The position numbers and the translations under genes are program-made. Positions 32,171 through 60,185 of a DNA stretch of 64,000 bases are shown here, piece by piece. Below the pieces are notes generated by a model. That model saw only the letters and a list, made by a program, of their open reading frames with translations. It had not been told where the DNA came from and did no database searches. This DNA is from Pseudarthrobacter sp. L1SW (GTDB taxonomy: Bacteria; Actinomycetota; Actinomycetes; Actinomycetales; Micrococcaceae). The stretch covers positions 2,046,001 to 2,110,000 of the forward strand of contig NZ_CP078079.1 of assembly GCF_020809045.1 (NCBI RefSeq), in the 5' to 3' direction. How positions within the stretch are numbered: position 1 is the stretch's first letter; each line of letters begins with the position of its first letter.

Positions 32171-33991
<1,821 letters not shown>

Positions 33992-34019
<28 letters not shown>

Positions 34020-34048
34020 CAGCTAAGGAGAAGGAGCTCTGCACGCAC
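33992..34048 (-). CDS. leuA leader peptide (four consecutive Leu codons)
   Basis: 18-codon frame from GTG 34046-34048 to TAG 33992: MRAELLLLSCRGEASDAI. The four Leu codons are CTC CTT CTC CTT. It lies 81 bp before leuA and ends ahead of it without overlap. TACCCT (34055-34060) ends 6 nt before the GTG, so the peptide would begin at the 5' end of the RNA. Leu-rich leaders before leuA are an established attenuation device in actinobacteria; this one is recognised from its composition, position and hairpin. Confidence 0.8.
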
Positions 34049-57471: not shown

Positions 57472-60000
57472 CTAGGCCGGGACGATGTTGACCAGTTTAG
57501 GGGCGCGGACAATCACCGTGCGGATGCCGCGGCCATCCAGTGCACGCTGGACGTTTTCCGATGCAAGCGCCAGCTCGCGCAGCTGGTCCTCGGAGACGTC
57601 CGGGGAGACCTCGAGCCTGTCCCGGACCTTGCCCTGGACCTGCACAACGGCGGTGACGGTGTCCTGGACCAGCAGGGAGGCATCATGGGCCGGCCAGCCC
57701 GCATTCGCGACGGAGGCCGGGTGTCCCAGGACGTTCCACATGTCCTCCGCGGTGTAAGGCGCGAAGAGGCTGAGGATCACCGCGACGGCCTCCGCAGCCT
57801 CACGGACGGCAGGATCCGCGCCGCCGGCGCCGGAGTCGATGGCCTTGCGCGTGGCGTTCACCAGCTCCATCAGCTTGGCCACCACCACGTTGAACTTGTT
57901 GGCGTCCAGCAGTTGGGCAGCGTCGGCGATGGTCCGGTGCGTGACGGAGCGCAGGGTGCGGTCGCCCGTGGTGACGTCGGCGCCGGGTTCGCTCGCCACG
58001 TCCTGGGCCAAGCGCCAGGCGCGGGCCAGGAACTTGGCGGAACCGGACGGCGAGACGTCGGCCCAGTCCACGTCGTCCTCAGGCGGGGAGGCAAAAATCA
58101 TTGTGAGGCGGACCGCGTCCACCCCATACTTGTCCAGCTGCTCGCCCAGGTCCACGCCATTGCCCAGGGACTTGCTCATGGCCTTGCCGCCGTTGAGCAC
58201 CTGGCCCTGGTTCAGCAGTGCGGTGAAGGGCTCGTTGGCTTCAATCAGGCCCAGGTCATTGATGACCTTGGTGAAGAACCGGGCGTACAGCAGGTGCAGG
58301 ATGGCGTGCTCCACGCCGCCCACGTACTGGCCCACAGGCATCCAGTCGTTGACCTTCTCCGGGTCGAACGGGCCCTCGGTGTAGTGCGGGGAGACAAAGC
58401 GGAGGAAGTACCAGGACGAGTCCACGAAGGTGTCCATGGTGTCGGTATCGCGCTTGGCCGGGCCATGGCAGGACGGGCACTCGACGTTGACCCAGGCCTC
58501 GGCCGCGGCCAGGGGCGAGGTGCCCTTCGGCGACAGGTCCTCGCCGCGCAGGTCGGAGGGAAGCGTGACGGGCAGCTGCTCGTCGGGAACCGGGACCTCG
58601 CCGCAGGACGGGCAGTGGATGATGGGGATGGGCGTGCCCCAGAACCGCTGGCGGCTCAGCAGCCAGTCCCGCAGCCGGAAGTTCACGAACTTTTCGCCCG
58701 TGCCCTGCTTCTCCAGCATGGCGATCGCGGCAGGGATGGCTTCGGACTTGGGCAGGCCGTCGAGGTTGCCCGAGTTGATCAGGGTGCCCTCTCCCGCCGT
58801 TGCGGTGCCGGACACGGCCGGGTCTTCCTCACCGGTGTCCAGCACTGCCCGAACGGGCAACTCGAACTTCCTGGCGAAATCCAGGTCCCGCTGGTCGTGC
58901 GCGGGCACGGCCATGATGGCACCGGTGCCGTAGTCGGCCAGGACGTAGTCAGCGGCCCAGACCGGCAGCTTCTCCCCGTTCAGGGGATTGATGGCGTACC
59001 GACCGGTGAAGACACCGGTCTTTTCCCGTTCCGTGGACTGGCGCTCGATTTCGGACAGCGCCTTGACCTGTTCACGGTACTCGTCCAGCGCAGCGGCGTG
59101 CTCGTCCGTGACGAGTTCGACGGCGAGCGGCGCGTCTGCTGCCACCACAAAGAACGTTGCGCCGTACAGGGTGTCCGGGCGGGTGGTGAAGACCGTCACC
59201 TCCTTGGCGGGCCTGCCGCCGTCGGCCTCGATCACGAAGTTGACGTGGGCACCCTCCGAGCGGCCGATCCAGTTCTTCTGCATGGCCAGCACGCGCTCGG
59301 GCCAGTGCCCGCGGAGCTGCTCCATGTCATCGAGCAGGCGGTCGGCGTACTCGGTGATCTTGAAGTACCACTGGTTGAGGGACTTCTTGGTGACCGTGGT
59401 GCCGCAGCGCTCGCAGGCGCCGTTGACTACCTGCTCGTTGGCCAGCACGGTCTGGTCCTTGGGGCACCAGTTGACCGGCGAGTCCTTGCGGTAGGCCAGC
59501 CCGCGCTCGTAGAAGCGCTTGAACAGCCACTGGGTCCAGCGGTAGTACTCGGGGTCCGAGGTATGGAGCCGTCGGGACCAGTCGGCCGAGATGGCGTAGC
59601 GCTTAAAGGATGCAGCCTGGGTGTCGATGTTGGCGTAGGTCCACTCGCTGGGGTGGGCATTGCGCTTGATGGCAGCGTTCTCCGCCGGCAGGCCAAACGA
59701 GTCCCAGCCGATCGGGTGGAGGACGTCGAAGCCCTTCTGGCGGAAGTAGCGGGCCACCACGTCACCCATGGCGAATGCTTCCGCGTGGCCCATGTGGAGG
59801 TCCCCCGAAGGGTACGGGAACATGTCCAGTACGTAGCGCCGTTCCCGGGACCCGTCGTCGACAGGGGTGAAGACCTTAAGGTCTTCCCATACCTGCGGCC
59901 ACTTGGCCTCCATCGCCGTGAAGCTGTAGGTGCCCTCCTCGGGCACTTCCGCTGACACTGCTGCTGTTGTTCCGGTCTCTGTCTCCGGCTGAACGCCCAC
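57472..60000 (-). CDS. leuS: leucyl-tRNA synthetase
   Basis: 842 aa class I aminoacyl-tRNA synthetase. HIGH-type motif [16 protein letters not shown], the editing domain with [16 protein letters not shown], and the KMSKS motif in [13 protein letters not shown] are present. A Zn-type insert [13 protein letters not shown] and [11 protein letters not shown] also occurs. GTG 59998-60000 behind AGAAGAGGG is chosen; GTG 60064-60066 behind GGGAG is also possible. Any start at or above 60102 falls in the leader terminator. Upstream lies a Leu-rich leader peptide and hairpin, so expression probably rises when leucine charging falls. Confidence 0.94.
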
Positions 60001-60086
60001 TGCTGCCCTCTTCTGTTCTGTTACGGCATCTGTGCTGCCATAACGGCCTGATCCTCCTGCTGCCACCGGAATGCTCCCGGACACAC

Positions 60087-60111
60087 AAAAGCCCCTCACC
60101 ATGGAGGGGCT
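60087..60111 (-). terminator. leader terminator of leuS (attenuator)
   Basis: On the minus strand AGCCCCTC (60104-60111) pairs with GAGGGGCT (60090-60097) around a 6-nt loop, followed by a short T-run and GTGTGT. It lies 8 nt after the leader peptide stop and before either leuS start, the place of an attenuator. A second small hairpin (TATCCG/CGGATA, 60121-60138) over the last leader codons could be the pause or competing structure. Confidence 0.7.
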
Positions 60112-60119
60112 GCCGCACG

Positions 60120-60173
60120 CTATCCGTTGTTCCGGATACCGGGCGGCTGGCTAAGCAGGAGGATCGCACGCAT
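60120..60173 (-). CDS. leuS leader peptide (three consecutive Leu codons)
   Basis: 17-codon frame from ATG 60171-60173 to TAG 60120: [17 protein letters not shown], with Leu codons CTC CTG CTT. TAAAGT (60180-60185) ends 6 nt before the ATG, so the RNA would begin at the start codon. An intrinsic-terminator-like hairpin follows. The N-terminal part (Met-Arg-Ala-X-Leu-Leu-Leu...Ser) parallels the leuA leader. Position, codon content and terminator support a leucine-sensing attenuator. Confidence 0.75.
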
Positions 60174-60185
60174 GAGACCACTTTA

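Follow-up and report, generated by a model that had tools for sequence, protein, structure and literature searches.

Leader-peptide attenuators upstream of leuS, the gene for leucyl-tRNA synthetase, were predicted in 2005 for Streptomyces coelicolor and S. avermitilis (Seliverstov et al. 2005, PMC1262725), and in 2021 the S. lividans leader LeuL2, with the peptide MRAVRLLLSEPR, was reported from RNA-seq to be leaderless and to be followed by a hairpin and a U-run (PMC8079986). The leuS gene in the 64 kb stretch of DNA analysed here (the window) likewise has a Leu-codon leader and a terminator with a U-run; as in LeuL2, an LLL frame of the leaderless type precedes the hairpin, its leaderless start being predicted here solely from the spacing to the −10 box. 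A preliminary description of the locus had held a Leu-codon leader before leuS, rather than before a biosynthetic gene, to be less usual; in view of the 2005 prediction this does not apply to the phylum concerned. Two differences from the Streptomyces systems stand out. Whereas the window frame has 17 codons through the loss of a stop, most relatives in the genus have 8 codons ending in TAG; further, the Streptomyces schemes include an antiterminator, for which the folding energies obtained here give poor support.

The Corynebacterium glutamicum ilvBNC attenuator (PMC11857589) and the ilvB-II motif (PMC10272879) likewise have a short leader that begins beside the transcription start and contains branched-chain codons, with hairpins and then a terminator, and are controlled through the speed of translation. 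They differ from the leuS leader in gene and amino acids, and the three-hairpin switch reported for them, with a GCC segment common to antiterminator and terminator, was not found in it. The LEU element before leuA (PMC1262725) has a similar Leu-codon leader, represented in the window by VRAELLLLSCRGE at 34048; in contrast to the leuS leader it lacks a terminator, and a pseudoknot plus pairing with the leuA ribosome-binding site were proposed for it. The leuS leader also shares the logic of the E. coli trp attenuator, in which the ribosome, once stalled, keeps the first arm of the first hairpin covered; unlike the latter, it has a predicted leaderless start, is very short, and has its arms 2 and 3 adjacent to each other, which leaves room for no more than a small 2:3 hairpin. 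The leuS leader belongs to a known kind of attenuator, for which a wider spread and a defined geometry can now be given, and is not a new kind.

Parts and length of the leuS leader

The features of the locus are collected in Table 1. In the window, the last Leu codon, CTT, begins 8 nt before the hairpin arm, and the terminator stem, GCCCCTC-GAGGGGC at 60110-60091, has an outer A-U pair and TTTTG. The GTG start of leuS is kept in relatives. The preliminary description had pointed to TAAAGT, 6 nt and ATG as an apparent leaderless start, to a 17-codon frame with three Leu codons and to a terminator-like stem with a T-run before leuS: all of these are present on the minus strand, the last as a covarying GC stem with a U-run, and the −10 spacing is the only ground for predicting the leaderless start itself.

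Table 1. Features of the leuS leader and leuS in the window
Feature	Position	Strand	Basis
−10-like box TAAAGT	60185-60180	minus	sequence; 6 nt upstream of leader ATG
Leader ORF, 17 codons, ATG 60173-60171, stop TAG	60173-60120	minus	putative leaderless start
Leu codons CTC CTG CTT (leader codons 5-7)	60161-60153	minus	geometry over 87 leaders
First hairpin (A:B), clamp GCCGC 60147-60143 with GCGGC 60116-60112	60147-60112	minus	covariation; −23.3 kcal/mol
Intrinsic terminator (C:D), AGCCCCTC-CATGGT-GAGGGGCT-TTTG	60111-60086	minus	covariation; −14.4 kcal/mol
leuS, leucyl-tRNA synthetase, GTG start at 60000	57472-60000	minus	NCBIfam TIGR00396, 979.8 bits

When both strands of the 64 kb were searched for TAnnnT followed after 6 or 7 nt by (A/G)TG and an ORF no longer than 25 codons that contains LLL, only two places were found, namely the leuS leader and the leuA leader at 34048. 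The leuS arrangement lies far beyond chance, and its conservation in relatives settles the point that the leader is real: the leader core (≤3 mismatches) is present in 139 of 150 genomes of the genus, which also provides the conserved peptide that the preliminary description had made decisive for its reading.

Most of the genus relatives have the 8-codon leader MRAILLLS, whose TAG overlaps the foot of the hairpin arm. In the window the TAG at codon 9 is replaced by CAG, which lengthens the frame to 17 codons; the same replacement is seen in 10 other genomes of the 150 and at locus L002. By this comparison, the 17-codon frame is a derived state and not the typical length. Accordingly, the hairpin described as lying over the last leader codons does so in the window, but in most relatives it comes after the stop. 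In other families the frame runs three codons further and ends with a TGA inside the hairpin arm; across 87 leaders the stop is at −2 in 16 and at +7 in 66. Leaders of the window genus and those of the Streptomyces type repeatedly begin with an MRA-type N-terminus, and elsewhere the N-terminal residues vary (MQRF, MSVVQ, VHTV, MFAQ, MDLSLQ) while the position of the Leu codons stays fixed. This makes the codon more likely than the peptide to be what is sensed.

At 33910-34048 of the window (minus strand), leuA (2-isopropylmalate synthase) is preceded by its own Leu leader of the LEU-element type, VRAELLLLSCRGEASDAI, at 34048. The similarity between this leader (CTTAGCTGCCGC) and that of leuS (CTTAGCTAGCCGC) may reflect a shared origin. 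Downstream of the leuS terminator, AGCAGGAGGATC at 60061-60050 (minus strand) is an exact 12-nt complement of the Ile-Leu-Leu-Leu codon stretch GATCCTCCTGCT of the window. As a functional pairing it was rejected: perfect in the window, it decays in relatives, contains AGGAGG and is probably not maintained. It also does not lie at the leuS start, and pairing of the LEU-element type was not found at this locus.

Spread of the leader across actinobacteria

We collected 80 leuS loci by taking the leuS genes of named genomes, and leaders of the same build were found upstream of most of them. The layout is present at most loci of the wider Arthrobacter group, the relatives among which such a comparison had been proposed, at some loci of Actinomadura, Kribbella, Nocardioides and Planobispora, and in genomes with Streptomyces-type leaders. 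No such leader was seen before leuS in Kocuria, Rothia, Micrococcus, Yaniella, Nesterenkonia and some Propionibacteriaceae among these 80 loci, and the Glutamicibacter-type loci have a divergent version only. In the latter (L037, L038, L043, L044, L045) a short frame of the leaderless type with a rare CTA codon (e.g., MNPKRNLA) stands before a terminator, and the usual GCCGC hairpin is missing.

A strict DNA pattern was too strict for a phylum-wide search, returning one leuS match and two unrelated places. We built a covariance model from 29 leaders and searched 198 genomes sampled across the class, of which 80 gave matches. Among 100 aligned matches, 85 lie at a locus that encodes LeuS, as judged by tblastn, and most of the others precede ilvB or citramalate synthase. 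The model also recovered leaders before leuS with the peptide MRAVRLLLSEPR, which is identical to the published LeuL2 and is present in 13 leaders, and these have the same 8-nt spacing as the window. The putative leuS attenuation switch is widespread across actinobacteria, so that control of leuS by a leader peptide would be a solution used broadly among them and no special trait of Streptomyces. Rfam has no family matching the leuS leader element, for which a covariance model is now given.

The same model matched the Val/Leu leader VVVLTKRVAH of the acetolactate synthase gene (ilvB) in the genome of the window (L115, G000:C1:2462595-2462700, minus strand). In other actinobacteria, citramalate synthase (TIGR00977, 609-670 bits) is preceded by leaders of the same layout with Ile codons (L178-L181; L183-L188), and an Ile-codon pattern matches 8 of the 198 class genomes. 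Our literature search did not turn up any description of attenuation by a leader peptide for citramalate synthase.

Covarying hairpins and codon-to-hairpin spacing

Over the two hairpins A:B and C:D, 97.6% of the cells are paired in the 100 aligned matches, which were fitted to a covariance model that itself favours pairing. Double changes occur in 15 of the 16 pairs. They fill 143 cells, whereas shuffling leaves 26.5 and sliding the structure 6-16; the slid structures pair only 39-62% of cells. A MAFFT alignment of 29 sequences, which is not fitted to a structure, has double changes in 9 of the 16 pairs. The covariation test suggested in the preliminary description thus came out strongly for both hairpins.

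The strongest of the new findings concerns the spacing between the Leu codons and the first hairpin. In 81 of the 87 leaders the last Leu codon before this hairpin begins exactly 8 nt upstream of arm A, over Leu runs of 1 to 4 codons. The codon is CTT in 72 of the 87, a codon that makes up 9% of the Leu codons in four genes of the window. The −10-to-start spacing is 6 nt in 65, 7 nt in 21 and 8 nt in one of the 87, a figure that is partly built in since the filter had required a box within 4-10 nt. Toeprints in general place the leading edge of a ribosome about 12 nt downstream of the codon in its A site. Given the 8-nt spacing, a ribosome waiting at the last Leu codon would just cover the five-base arm A. 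The fixed spacing supports charging-dependent, ribosome-mediated attenuation, and the geometry is one that a leucine-charging sensor would need, whereas neither a frame arisen by chance nor an arrest peptide would. The parts of the leader, their conservation, covariation and fixed spacing are direct results of the computation.

Folding calculations gave no strong competing structure. In the aligned leaders the first hairpin almost touches the terminator and can form together with it, and alternative folds before the 3' arm of the terminator is made are weak. With arm A masked by the ribosome footprint, the terminator persisted in all of the minimum-energy folds computed. Pairing of arm B with arm C and the loop averages −3.9 kcal/mol (−2.6 in the window) against −14.4 for the window terminator. 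Swapping B and the C-loop segment between species, for the leuS leaders only, did not weaken this pairing significantly (p = 0.09, a value uncorrected for phylogeny). Two other pairings were inspected by eye and set aside, namely that between B and the stretch following the U-run (GTGTGT), which appears in some folds but inconsistently across families, and that of leader codons 3-5 with a conserved CCGG after the U-run, which gives several cases of 5-9 bp but is not general.

Proposed regulation of leuS and alternative readings

Taken with the conserved peptide, the covarying hairpins, the fixed Leu-codon spacing and the precedent of the orthologous leader LeuL2 in S. lividans, the leader very probably represents leucine-charging-dependent, ribosome-mediated attenuation of leuS, by which synthetase output would be raised when charged tRNA-Leu is low. 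This supports the reading of the preliminary description, the response to tRNA-Leu itself being predicted. The leaderless mRNA would start at the leader ATG. With ample charged tRNA-Leu, the ribosome would clear the three Leu codons and leave, A:B and the adjoining C:D would both form, and most transcripts would end before leuS. With charged tRNA-Leu scarce, it would wait with CTT in its A site and its leading edge on the 5-nt arm A, and A:B could not close; the freed arm B would then interfere with the terminator, in the classical model by pairing with the loop of the terminator and its 5' arm, and the polymerase would read through the disturbed terminator into leuS. Support is good for the leader, for the hairpins and for the geometry of masking; we infer the stalling, the masking itself and, above all, the way in which loss of A:B lowers termination. 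The classical antiterminator route is plausible here, since mutational work on C. glutamicum ilvBNC supports an antiterminator (PMC11857589).

Results from S. coelicolor count against an attenuation reading: mutation of the control codons was reported to be without effect in the ilvB leader, and in leuA to have an effect not consistent with attenuation (PMC1262725). In favour of the proposed mechanism we counted the leaders of the same layout that the same model found, with branched-chain codons before ilvB and Ile codons before citramalate synthase. A variant of its last step dispenses with the antiterminator: the first hairpin would itself aid termination, either through stacking or because it holds RNA polymerase, and a stalled ribosome would act simply by keeping this hairpin from forming. 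The compatible, nearly abutting hairpins and the lack of a strong competing fold speak for this variant, but we know of no precedent, and ilvBNC is reported to use an antiterminator (PMC11857589); we regard it as a tentative and rather unlikely option. Somewhat more doubtful still is its extension to a single attenuator family comprising leuS, ilvB and citramalate synthase, in which a control codon lies 8 nt before a hairpin abutting the terminator, there is no true antiterminator, and the stalled ribosome melts a hairpin that the terminator needs. The fixed codon-to-hairpin spacing provides a sharp test of how an attenuator without a strong antiterminator works.

The remaining readings depart further from charging-dependent attenuation. 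The strength of the terminator would suit a constitutive leader that merely sets a low basal level of leuS or releases a short RNA, with no sensing role for the Leu codons; the fixed codon-to-hairpin spacing, and a Leu kept at the same place in different families, make this improbable. It is slightly less probable again that the nascent peptide rather than the codons stalls the ribosome, as in an arrest peptide sensing a small molecule: the MRA-type N-terminus shared by the window genus and Streptomyces-type leaders would agree with it, but N-termini otherwise differ around a fixed Leu codon position. T-boxes control many synthetase genes elsewhere, which is what would recommend a T-box or another riboswitch here. 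The chance of this is negligible, as the window has no Rfam match at gathering score and none that is credible at a relaxed threshold, the search indicates no tRNA-binding or ligand-binding structure in the leader, and the sole T-box-like match of the genome lies elsewhere, below the cut-off. That weak match (37 bits; L177, G000:C1:2332029-2332263, minus strand) possibly belongs to ileS.

Two further elements were noted between the terminator and leuS. A small ORF near 60042 (MAAQMP) was rejected as a candidate, its start codon showing no conservation. At 60044-60020 (minus strand) there is a hairpin, GTTATGGC...GCCGTAAC, whose pairing, judged by eye, seems to be kept through base changes in close relatives.
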